Shown: in pieces, positions 2,015-17,356 of the stretch | Layout: every line of letters begins with the position of its first letter | Numbering within the stretch: the stretch's first letter is position 1 | Origin: a virus | Reading direction: 5' to 3' (one strand) | DNA length: 31,405 nucleotides | IMG/VR virus record: IMGVR_UViG_3300025065_000028 | Location: 1-31,405 of that record | Made by a program: the position numbers and the translations under genes | The notes under the pieces: model-generated | Told to the model about the DNA's origin: nothing | What the model saw: the letters and a program-made list of their open reading frames with translations, nothing else | Database searches by the model: none

Positions 2015-2034
2015 CGGCGTGGTGCGTGTCCATT

Positions 2035-2062
2035 GGTCCCCCCGGCCACCACCGGGGGGGCC
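2035..2062 (+). promoter_or_regulatory. Strong GC hairpin before the primase start
   Basis: CCCCCCGG (2038-2045) and CCGGGGGG (2052-2059) form a perfect 8-bp stem around the 6-base loop CCACCA. Three further pairs (one G-U) extend it to 2035-2062. It ends 12 bases before GTG 2075 and directly before GGGGAAG, so it may control primase-helicase translation. It also makes the in-frame TTG at 2033, which sits in the left arm, an unlikely start. Confidence 0.5.
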
Positions 2063-2074
2063 GCTGGGGAAGCT

Positions 2075-4615
2075 GTGCCCAAGCCGAGTGAAGAAACGGT
2101 ACTGGTCGGTACACGCTGGCCATCGAAGGAAAAGACGGGAGATGGGCGCCCGTTCAAAGTCAAGTGGGCCACGATGGCCAGGCGGCTGGCGAATCCGAAG
2201 CCAGCGCCGAGGAATCGCAAGTCGAACCTACCTATCTGGACCCTCGGACGATTCGGCGAGAAGACCGAAGCGCAGGCCAAGGAAGAGCACGAAGAACGCC
2301 TCAAGACCGAACCCGGCGCGAAGCGCACGCCACATGGCCCTCACTACCGCGACACGAAGCGACACCTGGGGTCAGGCGGTCTTGTGCTCGACTACGACGC
2401 AAACCCCGGACTCGACGCCAAGGAACTACTCGCTGCGTGGGGGGATGTGTGTTTCCTGGCGCACACGAGTTGGAGTCACGACCCGGATCGCATGCCCAAG
2501 TGGCGCGTTCTGATCCCGCTGAATCGCGAGGTGAGCGCCGAGGAATACTGGATTTTGATGTCGGCGGCGGGGAGGCGGCTTGACGGACTGGATCGGTGTC
2601 CAGCTGCACAGGGGTACTTCATCCCAGCCAAGCGGGAAAACTACGATTACGTCTGCAATGAAGACGGCGCACCGTGGCCCGTAGATAACATCCTGGAGGG
2701 CGAACAAGCCCGGCAGAATCAAGAGGAAGAGCTCGCCCGTCAGAAGCGCGCAGAGGATCCCCCTTCGCCGCCACCGCTGACCCAAGATGATCGGCTCAGA
2801 CGGTACGCGTTGGCGGCGCTTGACAGCGAGTGTCAAGCCGTCTCGTCGATGTCAGCGGGGACGGGCGCAGACGGCGGGCGGCACAAGCGGATCTTGCTGG
2901 CAGCCAAGAGCATGGGCTCGCTCGAGGTGTCCTGCGGATTGTCGCGGACATTCATAGAGGGGGCGATCCTCGACGCGGCCGACCAATGCGGGGCAATCAA
3001 GAACTACGGCCTCAAGAGCGTAAAACGGACGATCGCAGACGGATATCGGATGGGGATCGAGAATCCCCGCGCACCGGAAGATAGGCAGCAGTACGGCGCA
3101 CGAGATCCTGCCCCGCCGTTCGAAAGGGACGACATCCCACCTCCCGACGATGGTGATGCTCCCTGGGATGATTCAGATGGTGAAGAAGACGACAAGCCCC
3201 AAGTCAGAAAGAGCGTCCGGTACAGACTGACCGACGTCGGGAACGCGCTCCGCTACCGCGACGAGCATGGCCACAACTTGAGGTACTGCGAGCCCCTCGG
3301 CGGCTGGTTCGTGTGGAACGGCTGTTGTTGGGAGCGTGACGAGCTCGGCCGCGCCATGCAGTTGGCCAAGCAATCGGCGGTCAGAATGCGCCGCGACGCG
3401 GAATCTCTGGCCAACGACGAACCAGGGAACGCCTACGCTACGGCCCTGCTCAAGTGGTCTAAGGAGAGCGAGGGCAAGAACAAGCTGGACAACATGCGGT
3501 CGCTGGCACGGTGGGAGCCGCCGATCCCGGTGCGAGTCGAACAGTGGGATCAAGATCATTGGCTGCTGAACACGCCTGGCGCGGTCTTCGATCTGCGCGA
3601 GGGCACGCATGCGCCCAACGATCGCGACCACTTCATTACACGGCGCACGCTGGTTGAGTACGACCCTGCCGCCGAGTGCCCGCGCTGGATGGAGTTTCTG
3701 CACGACATCATGGTCAACGATTTCGAGATGGTGACCTTTCTGCAGCGGGCGGTCGGGTACTCGATCACGGGCGTTCAGGACGAGCAGTGCCTCTTCTTCC
3801 TGCACGGTGCCGGCGCCAACGGCAAGAGCACCTTTCTAGGCACGCTGGAGAAGCTGCTGCACGACTACAGCAAGCACGTGGACCCCGAGGTGCTGGCGGT
3901 CAGCAAGAACGTGCAATCAGGCCCGACGCCAGAGTTAGCACGGCTACGCGGCGCGCGGTTCGTGTCCACGGTCGAGGTCGAGCACGGTAGACGTCTGGCC
4001 GAGGGGCTGATCAAGCAGATCACCGGCGGAGAACCCATCGTGGCCAGCTTCAAGTACCGTGATCCGTTCGAGTTCCAACCCGCGTTCAAGCTGTGGTTCG
4101 CGGCCAACCACGAACCTCGAATCATCGGCCGGGATCTGGGGATCTGGAGGCGAATTCACAAGGTTCCGTTCGAATACACCGTGCCGAATGAGAAGCGCAA
4201 CAAGCACCTGCTGAAGGAACTGATCGACGAGGAAGGCCCCGGAATCCTGCGGTGGGCCGTCGAGGGATGCCTCTTGTGGCAGGCCAGGGGGCTCGACCCG
4301 CCCGACGTCGTGACCGCCGCGACCGAGCAATACAAGGATGACCAGGACGCCCTTCGCCCCTGGTTGGACGAGTGCTGCGTGGTCGATTCCAAGTCCGAGG
4401 CGACCATCGGCGCTCTCTACCTCTCCTACAACAAGTGGGCGAAGGCCAACGGGGAGAAGGAAAAGAGCAAGAACATGCTGGGTCGCCTGCTGACCGAGCG
4501 CGGTTTCGGGATGAAGAAGGGATCGGGGGGGAAGCGAGTCCGCGTCGGCCTACGATTGACTGGCGAGCCATCCCAGGAGGGCATGGGGTGGGGACACGAG
4601 GCGGGAGAAGCATGA
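2075..4615 (+). CDS. Primase-helicase (archaeo-eukaryotic-type primase plus D5/P4 superfamily 3 helicase)
   Basis: An 846-aa replication protein. Residues about 85-200 look like a phage archaeo-eukaryotic-type primase: LVLDYDANPG near 106 would give the metal-binding DxD, then HTSWSHDP near 130 and KWRVLIPLN near 143. After a linker and an acidic low-complexity stretch (about 360-385) comes a D5 N-terminal-like region (about 440-540). A superfamily 3 helicase follows, with Walker A GAGANGKST at about 578-586 and TPELARLRGARFVSTVEVEHG (switch and Walker B region) after it; FAANHEPRI is the sensor motif. The C-terminal 90 residues match the winged-helix tail of P4/D5 primases (LYLSYNKWAKANGEKEKSKNMLGRLL). 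GTG 2075 follows GGGGAAG; TTG 2033 is possible but lies in a hairpin. The gene directly precedes the repeat-rich origin candidate, as in phage P4-like replicons where the same protein binds iterons. It is the likely initiator, unwinding and primer-making enzyme. Confidence 0.93.
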   Translation: MPKPSEETVLVGTRWPSKEKTGDGRPFKVKWATMARRLANPKPAPRNRKSNLPIWTLGRFGEKTEAQAKEEHEERLKTEPGAKRTPHGPHYRDTKRHLGSGGLVLDYDANPGLDAKELLAAWGDVCFLAHTSWSHDPDRMPKWRVLIPLNREVSAEEYWILMSAAGRRLDGLDRCPAAQGYFIPAKRENYDYVCNEDGAPWPVDNILEGEQARQNQEEELARQKRAEDPPSPPPLTQDDRLRRYALAALDSECQAVSSMSAGTGADGGRHKRILLAAKSMGSLEVSCGLSRTFIEGAILDAADQCGAIKNYGLKSVKRTIADGYRMGIENPRAPEDRQQYGARDPAPPFERDDIPPPDDGDAPWDDSDGEEDDKPQVRKSVRYRLTDVGNALRYRDEHGHNLRYCEPLGGWFVWNGCCWERDELGRAMQLAKQSAVRMRRDAESLANDEPGNAYATALLKWSKESEGKNKLDNMRSLARWEPPIPVRVEQWDQDHWLLNTPGAVFDLREGTHAPNDRDHFITRRTLVEYDPAAECPRWMEFLHDIMVNDFEMVTFLQRAVGYSITGVQDEQCLFFLHGAGANGKSTFLGTLEKLLHDYSKHVDPEVLAVSKNVQSGPTPELARLRGARFVSTVEVEHGRRLAEGLIKQITGGEPIVASFKYRDPFEFQPAFKLWFAANHEPRIIGRDLGIWRRIHKVPFEYTVPNEKRNKHLLKELIDEEGPGILRWAVEGCLLWQARGLDPPDVVTAATEQYKDDQDALRPWLDECCVVDSKSEATIGALYLSYNKWAKANGEKEKSKNMLGRLLTERGFGMKKGSGGKRVRVGLRLTGEPSQEGMGWGHEAGEA

Positions 4616-4640
4616 TGTCTTTTTTACATTTTTTGGGCAG

Positions 4641-4909
4641 AGTGGCGCATTTCTGTGGAAAAGTGGCGCAATTAGTGGCGTATTTTTACCGTGATTCGCC
4701 ACTAAGGTTCCTTTGTAATTGCGGCGGTTTACGAGGATGAGTGGCGCAATGGCGAATTCTCCCGAAAAGTTAGCATACGCGTGTGTGCGTGTATGGGGAG
4801 GTTCTTTGAAAATCGCCAAAATGCGCCACTTTCAGAAGGCGGAGTCTTGTAAGGCAACGGAATTGTTACGAAAACGGAGTGGCGCATTCGCCACTGAAAA
4901 TACGCCACT
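4641..4909. repeat. Nine-copy 10-base repeat array, consensus AGTGGCGHAW
   Basis: Five direct and four inverted copies of a 10-base unit; the first seven bases (AGTGGCG) are invariant in all nine and position 8 varies among C, T and A. Spacings are 21, 12 and 20 bases in the left cluster, wider in the middle, and 8 to 14 in the right cluster. I did not notice the unit elsewhere in the window. Likely binding sites for a replication initiator. Confidence 0.85.
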
Positions 4910-4922
4910 CGCTGATCGGGCC

Positions 4923-4931
4923 TGTGGATAA
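4923..4931 (-). promoter_or_regulatory. DnaA box
   Basis: TGTGGATAA is the exact reverse complement of the strong DnaA box TTATCCACA. It lies 14 bases after the last iteron copy. It suggests that host DnaA helps open the phage origin. Confidence 0.6.
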
Positions 4932-4941
4932 CTGGGTAGCA

Positions 4942-5031
4942 GTGTGCCAGGGTGGCACACATTTCCCTCGCGCACGTGCGCGGTGATACCGGATCGGAGC
5001 TACGAAACGTAACGATCGGCTGATAAGCCGA
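4942..5031. promoter_or_regulatory. Three successive palindromes upstream of the 5045 gene
   Basis: The inverted repeat GTGTGCCA (4942-4949) and TGGCACAC (4953-4960) has a 3-base spacer. A 14-base perfect palindrome CGCGCACGTGCGCG is at 4969-4982. A hairpin TCGGCT-GATA-AGCCGA is at 5016-5031. The last ends just before the GAGAGGAG ribosome site of the gene at 5045. They could be operators, or structured elements of the origin. Confidence 0.45.
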
Positions 5032-5044
5032 GAGAGGAGCGACG

Positions 5045-6208
5045 ATGGAAACCACGGAACGGAACAGGGATCAGGTGCTCGGAACCGAGACACGCAAGCT
5101 GATCTGCAAGCTGACGACCGACGAGATCGACGCCAAACGCGCCGAGCTCGGCGACTACCCGGAGCGCATCGACGACACCGAGAAGGAGCTGGACCGCGCC
5201 AAGGAGGACTGGAAGACCGAGAAGGGCCGGCTGGAGGGGAAGATCGCCACGCTCCAGGCAGAGCAGAAGCAGCTCATCCGCATCGTGTCCCGTGGCGCGG
5301 ACCGGCGCGAGGTGAAGGTGGAGCGCGTCGGCGACTACCAGACGTCGATGGTCAGGTACGAGCGGACCGACACGCGGGAGGTGGTCGAATCCCGGCCGAT
5401 GCGGGACTCCGAACGCCAGGCCGAATTGGCGCTACAGACCGATGACACCGACGAGGAGTTGCCCCACCGACCGCCAGCCGACACGCCACCCATCGACGAC
5501 GAGGACTCGCACAAGGACCACACCTGCGCGGAGTGCCTCGACTACGGCAACTGCGGCGCGATCAAGCGGAAGCTGTGCGGGCCAGAGGACGAGGCGTGCG
5601 CCAACCTGTGGTTGGAGGGGCGCGACCGGCCACTGCTGTGCGGGCTGTGCCTGCCGTTCCAGAATCACAACGAAGCGGATCCGCCCACTCCCGGCCGCTA
5701 CGACTGCCCCAGCGACCCCACCATCGAAGGGACGCGTGGAGTGATGCGCGTGACGGGCGCTTGCAACGGGTTCGTCGAGGGTGAGATGCCCCCCCCCGCA
5801 CCGCATTCCGTGGCCCCCGAAGTCCTGGCCGAGACCCAGGACCACGGCACGTCGGGCGAGCCGCAGGACCTGCCACAGCTGGCGCAGGACGTCATCGCGG
5901 CGAAGTACGGACCCGCGTCGGAGCTGATCCGCGGGTGCGACGATGCCGAGCTGCTGCGCGAGGTGCTCGCCGCCGAGCAGGGGATGCGCAAGCCCAAGCC
6001 CCGGGAGCGACTCATGTCGGTGATCCGCAATCGGATCGAGACCATCGAGAAGGAGGCGAAGGCCAGCGAGCCGACGCCGACCGGCCACGACCTCGGCGAC
6101 GGGCTCAAGGAGACGGTGCCCGCGGAGTTGGCCGACAAGGAGGGCGACGAGGATCCGTTCGTGGACAAGGGGACCGACGACGGTAGCGAGTCCGGAAAGC
6201 TCTTCTGA
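5045..6208 (+). CDS. Coiled-coil protein with Cys-rich centre, unknown function
   Basis: A 387-aa hydrophilic protein. Residues about 25-85 are strongly charged with heptad spacing (DDTEKELDRAKEDWKTEKGR and on), a likely coiled coil. A conserved-looking segment follows at about 95-130 (VERVGDYQTSMVRYERTDTREVVESRPM), of a kind I associate with uncharacterised phage early proteins. Residues about 160-240 hold ten or so cysteines (CAECLDYGNC, CGLCLPF, YDCPSDP), a likely zinc-binding region. The tail is very acidic and ends ESGKLF, which loosely recalls acidic, hydrophobic-ended protein-docking tails such as that of SSB. GAGAGGAG precedes ATG 5045. Its stop overlaps the RuvC-like start (TGATG), and it directly follows the origin candidate, so a replication or recombination accessory role is plausible but unproven. 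Confidence 0.7.
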   Translation: METTERNRDQVLGTETRKLICKLTTDEIDAKRAELGDYPERIDDTEKELDRAKEDWKTEKGRLEGKIATLQAEQKQLIRIVSRGADRREVKVERVGDYQTSMVRYERTDTREVVESRPMRDSERQAELALQTDDTDEELPHRPPADTPPIDDEDSHKDHTCAECLDYGNCGAIKRKLCGPEDEACANLWLEGRDRPLLCGLCLPFQNHNEADPPTPGRYDCPSDPTIEGTRGVMRVTGACNGFVEGEMPPPAPHSVAPEVLAETQDHGTSGEPQDLPQLAQDVIAAKYGPASELIRGCDDAELLREVLAAEQGMRKPKPRERLMSVIRNRIETIEKEAKASEPTPTGHDLGDGLKETVPAELADKEGDEDPFVDKGTDDGSESGKLF

Positions 6209-6975: not shown

Positions 6976-7083
6976 ATGACGTCGTGCTCACCTATTCCAA
7001 CGACGACAGCAAATAACCCACCCCTGGCCGGGGTGCCTTCGGGTGAGCACAGCCCTGGCCAGTGGGTGCGGTTTTCGGAGTGA
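6976..7083 (+). CDS. Possible 35-aa small protein
   Basis: An open frame beginning ATG 6976, with GGAAGGGA 10 bases upstream, ends in TGA two bases before the ParB-methyltransferase start at 7086. The product is Pro/Ser/Thr-rich (MTSCSPIPTTTANNPPLAG and on) with no recognisable domain. A GC hairpin CACCCC-TGGCC-GGGGTG (7019-7035) lies inside it, so the segment may equally be a structured intergenic spacer. Low confidence as a gene. Confidence 0.25.
   Translation: MTSCSPIPTTTANNPPLAGVPSGEHSPGQWVRFSE
7019..7035. promoter_or_regulatory. GC hairpin upstream of the methyltransferase gene
   Basis: Perfect 6-bp stem CACCCC (7019-7024), loop TGGCC, GGGGTG (7030-7035); a second inverted pair CTGGCC (7024-7029) and GGCCAG (7056-7061) overlaps it, so two alternative folds are possible. 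There is no T-run. Confidence 0.3.
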
Positions 7084-7085
7084 CG

Positions 7086-8411
7086 ATGCAGACGCATCCA
7101 ATTGCGGACATCTTTCCTTTGCTGGACGGCGACGAGTTCACCGAGCTGGCCGAGGACATCCGACAGCATGGCCAGCGGCACCCGATCATTACGTGGCAGG
7201 GCAAGATCCTCGACGGCCGGAATCGATACAACGCGTGCAGGGAAGCCGAGGTCACGCCGAAGATCGAGGGCCGTCACTTCGCCGACGACAGCGAGGCGAT
7301 CCTGTTCGTCATCTCGGCCAACCTGAAGCGGCGGCACCTGACCCCGAGTGCGAAGGCGATGGCGGCAGCGCGGAGCCTGGAGATGTTCGAGGCGGCGGCG
7401 AGGGAGCGACACCGAGCCGGCAGCAGCAAAGGCGGCAAGGCTGTGGCAAATTTGCCCGGGCCTTCAGAGGAGCGACGAGCCCGCGACGACGCAGCAGCCG
7501 CGTTCGGCGCCTCGCCCCGGAACGTGCAGGACGCCAAGAAGGTACTCACCAGCGGGTCGACGGAGTTGGCACAAGCTGTGGACAAGGGCAATGCGTCGGT
7601 GGCGAACGCCGCCGCAGTGGCGACATTGCCAACCACAGAGCAGCAGCAGGTCGTGGCCAAGGGCGAGAAAGAGATCCTCGCCGAGGCCAAGCGTATCCGG
7701 GAGCAACGGCGGGAAGCCGCCGCCAAGGCCAGACATCAGCGGCAGCAGGATGCCGCCAAGAAAGCCGCCGAGGCTGCGCCCGACATCGAGGGTATCGAGA
7801 TCCGACACTGCGACTGCGCGGCCATCCTCGCCGACACGGCGGCCGCTGTGTTGATTCACGCGGATCCACCCTGGAACTACGGCAACCAGATCAAGGAACA
7901 CGGCGCGGTCGGTGCCCACTACGGAGACCTTTCGATCGCCGACATCGCCTCGACCATCAACGACGCCTACGCCGCCGCCGCCGACAACTGCTACCTGCTG
8001 CTGTGGTGCACGCTGCCAATCCTGGCCGAATGGTTTGAGGCGGCGCGGGATATCCGGTGGGCCTACAAGTCGGCCGGCGTGTGGGGCAAGACGGGCCGCC
8101 TCGGCGTGGGGTTCCATTGGAGAGGCGACGCCGAGATCCTGATGCTGTACGTCAAGGGGAACCCGCGACCGTTCCGCGAGGACACCAGCAACCTCCACGT
8201 CGGGCCGAGGGGCGAGCACAGCGAGAAGCCGCAAGCGTGGCTGGAGACGCTGCTGGAGACCTTCTGCCCGCCGTCTGGGCTGGTACTCGATCTATACGCA
8301 GGGATGGCTCCAGCGGCCCGAGCGTGTGCCAAGACAGGCCGACGATACCTCGGCGCGGAGATCGACGCCCAGCGGCACGCGACCGCCGTGGCAAAGCTGA
8401 GGAGCGCGTGA
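7086..8411 (+). CDS. ParB-like N-terminus fused to a DPPW-type (MT-A70-like) DNA methyltransferase
   Basis: A 441-aa two-domain protein. Residues 1-95 match the ParB/sulfiredoxin-like domain: HPIADIFPLLDGDEFTELAEDIRQHG, PIITWQGKILDGRNRYNAC, then ANLKRRHL. A helical region with HTH-like repeats and a charged helix (residues about 195-235, REQRREAAAKARHQRQQ) follows. The methyltransferase has the catalytic DPPW at residue 260, HSEKP near 378 and the SAM-binding DLYAG near 402, an order (catalytic motif before SAM motif) like beta-type amino-methyltransferases; N6-adenine is the likely product. GGAG lies 8 bases before ATG 7086. In phages such fusions are thought to modify phage DNA, with the ParB part acting in DNA recognition; the sequence shows only the domains. 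TGATG couples it to the next gene. Confidence 0.88.
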   Translation: MQTHPIADIFPLLDGDEFTELAEDIRQHGQRHPIITWQGKILDGRNRYNACREAEVTPKIEGRHFADDSEAILFVISANLKRRHLTPSAKAMAAARSLEMFEAAARERHRAGSSKGGKAVANLPGPSEERRARDDAAAAFGASPRNVQDAKKVLTSGSTELAQAVDKGNASVANAAAVATLPTTEQQQVVAKGEKEILAEAKRIREQRREAAAKARHQRQQDAAKKAAEAAPDIEGIEIRHCDCAAILADTAAAVLIHADPPWNYGNQIKEHGAVGAHYGDLSIADIASTINDAYAAAADNCYLLLWCTLPILAEWFEAARDIRWAYKSAGVWGKTGRLGVGFHWRGDAEILMLYVKGNPRPFREDTSNLHVGPRGEHSEKPQAWLETLLETFCPPSGLVLDLYAGMAPAARACAKTGRRYLGAEIDAQRHATAVAKLRSA

Positions 8412-15240: not shown

Positions 15241-15774
15241 ATGGCCGACAAGCGCGAGGCTCCCACCGAGGCGCAGTACGACATCGCCTTCGACCTGGTA
15301 GCCGAGCAGGGCGCGCGCTCCGGCTGCGTCAACAAGGACACTTTCAAAGCGGTGCTGCACCGCCTCAATCGCGAGATGAAGGGCGCCCGGTGGAACAGCC
15401 GGGACATTCACAAACGATGGAGGGAGCGACCACAAGAGGAACACTTCCGCCGGATGCGCAAGGCCCGCGAGCGGCTCATGCTGCTCAACAAGGACAAGGC
15501 AAAGCGATGGAAGGCTATCAACGAGGTGTCGTCGTTCATCGCGGTCGAGGGTCTTCGGCGCATCGCCACCAAGCTCAGCGACGGCAAGCTCAATACCCGT
15601 GACGAACTCGCAGCCGTCCGTCTCGCGATGGAGATCCAGTCGGGTGCCATGGGTGCTGCGGGCAAGACGGTGATTCTCACGGTCAACAACATCTCGGGAC
15701 GCATCCTCGATACGCCACCGCCGGCGCCAGAGATCGAGGGCGACCCCGACGACGTCAGCGAGCCCGATGGATAA
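15241..15774 (+). CDS. Probable terminase small subunit
   Basis: A 177-aa protein directly upstream of, and overlapping by 8 bases, the large terminase gene. An N-terminal helical domain (EAQYDIAFDLVAEQGARSG, then TFKAVLHRLNREMKGARWNS) resembles the DNA-binding part of small terminases. A basic helical middle (RRMRKARERLMLLNKDKAKR) for oligomerisation and a Pro/Asp-rich disordered tail follow. Motifs are weak; the call rests mostly on position, size and composition. It would recognise phage DNA for packaging. Confidence 0.65.
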   Translation: MADKREAPTEAQYDIAFDLVAEQGARSGCVNKDTFKAVLHRLNREMKGARWNSRDIHKRWRERPQEEHFRRMRKARERLMLLNKDKAKRWKAINEVSSFIAVEGLRRIATKLSDGKLNTRDELAAVRLAMEIQSGAMGAAGKTVILTVNNISGRILDTPPPAPEIEGDPDDVSEPDG

Positions 15775-17356
15775 GTCGGACACCATCGTCGCCGACGGCA
15801 TCACGCACTACACCACCGACGGGCGCAGCGTGACGCCCAACCCAGTACAGGCATGGATTCTCGACGCGGCCTTTTCGCAGTCGATCGATGAACTGTTCGT
15901 GTTCGGCGGCTTCGGATCGGGCAAGACCCAGGCCCTCGCGTGGACGCTGTGGAAGGCGATGATGCTCGCCTACGAGTTTTGGGACGGCAAGCGCCTGACC
16001 CGCGCGAGGTTCGCTATCGTGTCCAGCGACGGCTCGCAGCTGCGCACGGTGACCATGCCGACGTTCGAGGCCGTGTTCAACTACGCGACGGGGCACGACG
16101 GGCCGTTCTGGAGCATCTACGGAGCCAAGCGCAATCCGCTGGTGGAGTCCTACAGCCGAGAGGACAAGCTCTACGAGTTGCCGTGGTGCACGCTGACGCA
16201 GGCCACGGGGCACAACGGCTGCCAGTCGATCGAGGGCGGCTCCTACCTCGGTATCTTCTGCGACGAGACGCCGTTGTGGCTGCCCTCTGGCTTCGAACGC
16301 GTCCGCCACCGCTATCGACAGACGGGCTTCCCGTTCCGCGCCCTGGTGCACTTTGCCACGCCGCAGCCGGGGCGGTCCTTGGCTGCGATCAATGAGCGAT
16401 ACCAGGACTGCGATCCCTACAAGGTCTACGTCGAGAAGGGCACGTGGAAGGACCCATACAGCTACGGCCGCGCTCGCATCATGATGCCCACACGCCTCAA
16501 CGCCGCCAATCTGCCGCCGGGGTACATCCAGCAGCTCGCCAGCGGCACGTCGCCACAGATGGCCAAGGCGATCCTCGACGGCGAGCTCGTGCTGCTCGAG
16601 GGCCGCGTCTACCCCACCTACGACGAGTCCAGCCGCATCGACTACGAGTACTCGCCTGATCGGCCCGTCGTGCTCGGCTACGATCCCGGTTTTCATCGCC
16701 CCTACGCGCTGGCCATCCAAGAGATCGAGTCCGGCAGCGATCGGTGGTGCGCGTTCGACGAGATCGCCATCGCCGACGTCACCCGCGACACCTTCGCCGA
16801 CCATCTGTGCCGGCGTCACTGGATCCGCAACCTATCCGCCGTCATTCACGACCCGGCGGCGAAGCAGCGCGAGACCAGCGGCATCAGCGACCGCGTGCAC
16901 CTGCAGAACTTCCTTGCCGACCGCGGGGTGAACCCCAAGTTCTGGAACCCGTATCGCCCCGAGCATCGCCTCATCACCTACGGCTGCGAGCGCGGCCGAG
17001 CGTGGCTGTGCTCCGCCGACGGTGATCGGCGCTTCTTCGTCGCGCACTCCCTCGTGGGCAAGCGCTACGGCACCGGCAGCGACGGTCATCCAGTCAGCGG
17101 GATTCATGCGGCGCTGGAAAACCAGACCATCAAGACCGGCACCGACGAGCCGGATCGCAGCGCGAAGGTCGACCACCTCTCGCATCCGTCCGACGCCTTC
17201 CGCTACCTGGCCGTGCGGTATCACCCCGTGGCGCAGGTCGTCGACGGCGGCTGGTCAGAGGTCGCCGAGGCCGGCGCTACAGCCGAGGGACTCGGCGAGT
17301 CCATGGGCGACTTCGGCGCCGACGCGATGGGCGGCTGGGCGGAGCGGGGGTACTAG
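15767..17356 (+). CDS. terL: Terminase large subunit (packaging ATPase-nuclease)
   Basis: A 529-aa motor protein. The ATPase has Walker A GGFGSGKT at residues 47-54 and Walker B YLGIFCDET near 160-168 (Asp-Glu). The RNase H-type nuclease has three acidic sites: VVLGYDPG near 301-308, AVIHDP near 360 and HPSDAFRYL near 475. Length and domain order are standard for phage large terminases. ATG 15767 overlaps the small subunit gene. It pumps DNA into the prohead and cuts concatemers. Nine bases separate its stop from an inserted block of small membrane proteins rather than the portal. Confidence 0.93.
   Translation: MDKSDTIVADGITHYTTDGRSVTPNPVQAWILDAAFSQSIDELFVFGGFGSGKTQALAWTLWKAMMLAYEFWDGKRLTRARFAIVSSDGSQLRTVTMPTFEAVFNYATGHDGPFWSIYGAKRNPLVESYSREDKLYELPWCTLTQATGHNGCQSIEGGSYLGIFCDETPLWLPSGFERVRHRYRQTGFPFRALVHFATPQPGRSLAAINERYQDCDPYKVYVEKGTWKDPYSYGRARIMMPTRLNAANLPPGYIQQLASGTSPQMAKAILDGELVLLEGRVYPTYDESSRIDYEYSPDRPVVLGYDPGFHRPYALAIQEIESGSDRWCAFDEIAIADVTRDTFADHLCRRHWIRNLSAVIHDPAAKQRETSGISDRVHLQNFLADRGVNPKFWNPYRPEHRLITYGCERGRAWLCSADGDRRFFVAHSLVGKRYGTGSDGHPVSGIHAALENQTIKTGTDEPDRSAKVDHLSHPSDAFRYLAVRYHPVAQVVDGGWSEVAEAGATAEGLGESMGDFGADAMGGWAERGY

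Follow-up and report, generated by a model that had tools for sequence, protein, structure and literature searches.

The region behind the primase-helicase gene

The IMG/VR contig IMGVR_UViG_3300025065_000028 was analysed over its whole length of 31,405 bases (G+C 0.66), referred to below as the window, and is probably a fragment of a genome. It carries a gene for a primase-helicase followed by a gap of 429 bp, which is gene-free and, as the earlier note had described, AT-richer than its surroundings (G+C 0.52 vs 0.66 in the whole record). The features of the locus are listed here.

2033..4615, plus strand: primase-helicase, 860 aa; start codon uncertain (TTG as listed)
4349..4564, plus strand: C-terminal winged helix, proposed iteron reader (model, Foldseek, co-variation); wing KKGSGGKRVRVGL
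4616..5044, no strand: gene-free stretch, proposed origin, between the primase stop and the next gene start (5045)
4641..4650, plus strand: iteron AGTGGCGCAT (motif scan)
4662..4671, plus strand: iteron AGTGGCGCAA (motif scan)
4674..4683, plus strand: iteron AGTGGCGTAT (motif scan)
4694..4703, minus strand: iteron AGTGGCGAAT (motif scan)
4740..4749, plus strand: iteron AGTGGCGCAA, inner left copy, followed by a degenerate TGGCGA at 4750-4755
4773..4795, no strand: alternating purine-pyrimidine tract GCATACGCGTGTGTGCGTGTATG, 23 nt, at the dyad centre
4821..4830, minus strand: iteron AGTGGCGCAT, inner right copy, with a degenerate minus-strand TGGCGA at 4813-4818
4878..4887, plus strand: iteron AGTGGCGCAT (motif scan)
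4886..4895, minus strand: iteron AGTGGCGAAT, in palindromic overlap with the iteron at 4878..4887
4900..4909, minus strand: iteron AGTGGCGTAT (motif scan)
4923..4931, minus strand: exact DnaA box TTATCCACA, not conserved, role doubtful

The motif AGTGGCGNAW occurs nine times between 4641 and 4909, beginning 26 bp past the primase stop, and a motif scan confirmed the five direct and four inverted copies that had been counted before. The same motif is found nowhere else in the 31.4 kb record, and its backward-read control has no copies in the record. The earlier note had asked for a genome-wide count with a control, and both favour a true array: the heptamer AGTGGCG appears 14 times in the window, nine of them in this stretch and five scattered across the remaining 31 kb, while Markov-simulated gaps of 429 bp (3000 runs) hold 0.07 copies on average and two at most. 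No 7-mer of any kind reached nine copies in 1000 simulated gaps (maximum 7).

The copies are arranged around the alternating tract, with four of the five forward copies to its left and three of the four reverse copies to its right; the split is imperfect, as an inverted copy (4697) lies left of the tract and a forward copy (4878) right of it. The two inner copies (4740-4746 and 4824-4830) are opposite in orientation and form a dyad symmetry about the tract, each accompanied by the degenerate TGGCGA. Tract, dyad and degenerate copies had all been overlooked by the earlier note. The exact palindromic site AGTGGCGNATTCGCCACT was sought in viral contigs and found in none. Terminators at 4877-4910 were considered and rejected, the terminator-like hits being the inverted iterons themselves, and an Rfam search returned no match. 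A change of GC skew at 4616-4931, named beforehand as a check, was not seen; the cumulative skew climbs through the site and turns near 10 kb, which we count as neutral because the record is probably a fragment.

The phage itself belongs to a lineage that, judged by its terminase large subunit (15767-17356), is poorly sampled, this protein having a single weak relative (29% over half) among 50,697 phage records. A sibling contig, IMGVR_UViG_3300009314_000061, is 99.99% identical and covers positions 6026-27353 of the window, that is, without the origin stretch. Positions 7062-8411 encode a 449-aa protein with matches to ParB-like nuclease and DNA methyltransferase families, a fusion by appearance.

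The primase-helicase comprises a D5_N domain (residues 406-560; Pfam, 8e-31), an SF3/DUF5906 helicase (590-707; 1e-9) and a C-terminal winged helix (~773-844), and the whole protein matches the DNA primase family phrog_1156 at 2e-122. Single matches in the phage and plasmid collections cover at most ~64% of it, with an identity over the helicase half of at most ~44%, and peptide patterns found no close relatives in viral contigs. An AlphaFold2 model of residues 385-860 (mean pLDDT 93.9) resembles AsfvPrimPol, mpox E5 and the SaPI5 primase-helicase 7ola in Foldseek, and a family profile search likewise matched 7ola at 8.5e-43. The last 100 residues are modelled as a winged helix (pLDDT 82.7), whose best PDB match in Foldseek is the RFX DNA-binding domain on its X-box (1dp7, E 8e-4). 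The RFX domain binds DNA by reading it with the wing. Likeness to RFX has also been published for ASFV C962R and P4 alpha (PMC10516667) and, weakly, for vaccinia D5 (PMC9611036).

Repeats behind related primases and their proposed reader

Most of the first phage and plasmid homologues that we fetched have behind the primase gene a gap, 140-300 bp long, in which a repeat particular to that locus recurs in both orientations: GGGTTAA in A9Y, AGTAACA in phi105, CCGTCAG in AcaML1, GGTGAGCA in EV3, GGGACAT in Eponine and AGGGTACT in a Singulisphaera plasmid. The gap behind the primase of a Thermaerobacter plasmid held no such repeat. Under a strict test (exact 7-mers, 300 nt behind the primase, p<=0.05), a significant array was present at 36 of 96 non-redundant loci, and in 35 of the 36 it occupied both strands. 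This is the kind of search in related genomes that the earlier note had proposed. The innermost copies are opposite in 22 of the 25 loci in which an array was found together with a tract of 9 nt or more. According to the census, D5 primases of phages and prophages from many phyla are followed by this layout. It is not, as had been supposed, unusual for a tailed phage, given that the annotated origin of Streptococcus phage Sfi21 lies in the same place and many prophages are alike.

Which protein reads the motif is suggested by how the two vary together. In the Bacillus prophage loci L065/066/070, L075/076 and L081-087, primases 97-100% identical over the helicase are followed by AGGGCAG, GGTGTAT or AAGGTGG at near-fixed positions, and the differences between the proteins fall within the last ~100 residues; on this comparison, the loci would be natural specificity swaps. 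Among primase pairs from several lineages, not mutually independent, whose helicases are at least 97% identical, the C-terminal identity has a median of 98% where the motif is shared (n=32) and stands at 68% where it differs (n=25, maximum 82). The drop tied to a change of motif is confined to residues 774-858, with its onset near 774 and its deepest part at 822-858, which is the wing region of the model.

The same relation is seen from the side of the motif. A contig filed under candidate division NPL-UPA2 (L123) has eight AGTGGCG copies behind a primase only ~40% identical to that of the window, and the two primases have the wing KGSxG[KR]R in common. Among 166 primases, the wing signature KG[ST][AGN]G[KRQ] occurs in three, namely the window, L123 and L048, and the same three only are followed by at least three GTGGCG. 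The pattern was drafted after the alignment of the window and L123 had been seen, and with two members known in advance it was therefore tried on new loci found by DNA alone. Two scans for AGTGGCG arrays, in which neither a D5 primase nor its wing was a search criterion, gave 86 loci, and a D5 primase was present at five of these. Each of the five primase genes is followed within 420 nt by 3-9 AGTGGCG, the array itself having been searched for. Four of the five carry a KG[ST]xG wing (L185 KGTGG, L186 KGTAG, L187 KGTGG and L257 KGTGG, the last a relative of L048), and the fifth, L228, has KATGG. Evidence to the contrary comes from seven fetched loci with clusters of at least four AGTGGCG, in which there was no D5 primase in reach, several of them ending close to the array. 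Taken together, AGTGGCG seems to be read by the C-terminal winged helix of the primase, probably through its wing.

The heptamer is also found in other settings. L182, one of these seven loci, has an 11-copy AGTGGCG array (2624-3006) directly behind a Prim-Pol fused to a VapE-like SF3 helicase (3114-5576, minus strand), by its domains an initiator from another family with the same heptamer. Two arrays lie on one contig at L183:428-491 and 926-1022, in a fetched stretch without a D5 primase, and L184 is similar.

The alternating tract between the inner copies

Purines and pyrimidines alternate strictly through the tract, whose centre is offset by 1 bp from the point midway between the inner copies. 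It has a G+C content of 57% and, within the 300 nt that follow the primase stop, ranks at the 87th percentile of stability; the AT-rich region that separates the iteron sets in origins of the SaPI/PICI type is not found here, the gap being AT-richer than the record only overall. At 10 of 32 GC-rich loci, a tract of 16 nt or more lies in the 250 nt that follow the primase; the frequency is 0.12% among 854 control sites downstream of other ORFs and 1.3% in shuffles. Roughly two thirds of the GC-rich loci have no long tract, and the feature is to be regarded as common among them, not universal, as far as the surveyed loci indicate. Three loci found by motif alone (L185, L186 and L187) have tracts of 18-19 nt, e.g., GCACGCGCGCACGCACACG and CACACGCGCGCGCGCGCA.

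AT-rich relatives have (AT)n at the position of the tract. Nearest-neighbour energies rank the tract as the least stable segment in all three AT-rich cases examined and put it at the 87th-100th stability percentile in 9 of 11 GC-rich or mid-GC cases, on which ground we rejected, for most GC-rich members, a melting element that acts through low stability. Since the tract is stable in GC-rich and unstable in AT-rich loci, low stability is not the common property; alternation can be. Over all loci the tract is only weakly centred (median offset 8 bp vs 15 expected, p 0.04), and exact centring was not kept as a rule for all of them, though the offset is 1 bp here.

With more doubt than confidence, we suggest that the conserved part of the centre may be alternation and not AT-richness, written as (AT)n or (CG/CA/TG)n according to genome G+C. 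Such a tract might be flexible at its steps or Z-forming between the two hexamers, and the wing of the RFX-like C-terminal domain would provide a readable code leading from protein to iteron.

A probable origin of the SF3-helicase type and its alternatives

We interpret 4616-4931 as a self-loading origin of the SF3-helicase type, akin to those of SaPI/PICI, Sfi21 and P4, with a probability of about 0.87; the winged helix of the primase would bind AGTGGCG, and two opposed hexamers would open the duplex at the tract. The position of the array, its repeats, its symmetry and the co-variation of domain and motif are observed directly in the DNA and the proteins. In the mechanism that we infer from them, the C-terminal winged helix binds AGTGGCG, probably via its wing, and the left-hand forward copies together with the right-hand inverted copies would seat two hexamers of the primase-helicase in opposite orientation around 4773-4795. 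The duplex would open at this tract, from which two forks would start replication with primers made by the phage's own primase. We propose two hexamers because of the analogy with SaPI Rep, with Cch2 and with the SV40-like view of SaPI origins.

In both SaPI Rep and SCCmec Cch2, the C-terminal domain binds iterons that lie immediately downstream (PMC7581432), the origins of PICIs carry two sets of iterons 3′ of the gene for the initiator (PMC6092414), and SaPI origins have been likened to that of SV40, with two head-to-head helicases or double hexamers (PMC9894130). The window agrees with SaPI/PICI in an origin directly 3′ of the primase-SF3 helicase gene, in two iteron sets of opposite orientation and in a D5_N-type helicase with a C-terminal DNA-binding domain; it differs in belonging to a tailed phage that encodes head genes of its own, in the AGTGGCG motif and in a centre of alternating purines and pyrimidines that has 57% G+C and is not AT-rich. 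In Sfi21 the annotated origin also lies in the non-coding region right behind a D5-family primase and has inverted repeat arrays around a centre, but the motif is GTTAC, the centre is AT-rich, the host is Gram-positive and the phage genome is another one. Cch2 (AAGTG iterons) is likewise a D5_N-type helicase, and its C-terminal domain in isolation binds iterons in the downstream gap (PMC7581432); unlike the window, it has just three direct iterons and no fused primase. P4 alpha shares the SF3 primase-helicase and a C-terminal winged-helix origin-binding domain (structure cited in PMC10516667), iterons in both orientations and a crr that adjoins the alpha gene. However, in P4 ori and crr are ~4.5 kb apart and the iterons are GGTGAACA, whereas the window has one cluster in 31.4 kb of a record that is perhaps incomplete. 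The origin type is already known, and its tract centre is a variant for which our literature search on alternating tracts in such origins found no description.

The earlier note had proposed an iteron origin beside a D5/P4-like primase-helicase, read by its C-terminal domain, with host DnaA as a partner. The origin is supported by the array and its position, and the co-variation and the wing make reading by the C-terminal domain probable. The DnaA part, in which host DnaA at 4923-4931 would aid opening as in P1 oriR or pSC101, was not supported and we consider it unlikely. Both boxes are present as had been noted, the exact one 14 bp from the last iteron and one with a single mismatch (TTTTCCACA) at 4654-4662, and since exact boxes stand behind just 0.4% of other genes, the exact box may be real in this phage (~0.4% chance by the control rate). 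But an exact TTATCCACA follows the primase in only one of the 96 loci, the window alone (0 of 95 others), relaxed boxes in 4 of 96 vs 2.3% behind other genes are near background, and L123 has no DnaA box despite its AGTGGCG array. DnaA boxes were accordingly rejected as a family trait, and the box appears not to be part of this origin type. The neighbouring gene, too, encodes a D5/SF3 primase-helicase and not an initiator of the RepA/RepE type (P1 oriR, pSC101). Phage P4 has an exact box of the same sequence at the edge of crr (L099:4281-4289), though its replication is not known to need DnaA.

We give still less credit to an array that serves incompatibility or copy control by titrating the initiator, as P4 crr and plasmid inc iterons do, while replication starts at another site; P4 does have two iteron regions, one (crr) following the alpha gene and the other (ori) at a different place, but no second cluster of the motif was found in the 31.4 kb, from which part of the genome may be missing. 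Least probable of all is an operator array in which AGTGGCG is the target of a regulator (e.g., the small HTH_3 protein encoded nearby at 1381-1569) for the genes after 5045 and replication starts elsewhere, for although nine sites precede an operon, no sigma-70-like promoter was found in 4560-5100 and in relatives across lineages the motif follows the primase C-terminal domain.

In GC-rich members, the census finds a centre that does not melt easily. If the SF3-helicase reading of 4616-4931 is right, the C-terminal wing of the primase would by itself suffice to find origins of this kind and perhaps to predict their motif, and the opening of SF3-helicase origins would become testable with natural variants, that is, near-identical primases with different motifs.
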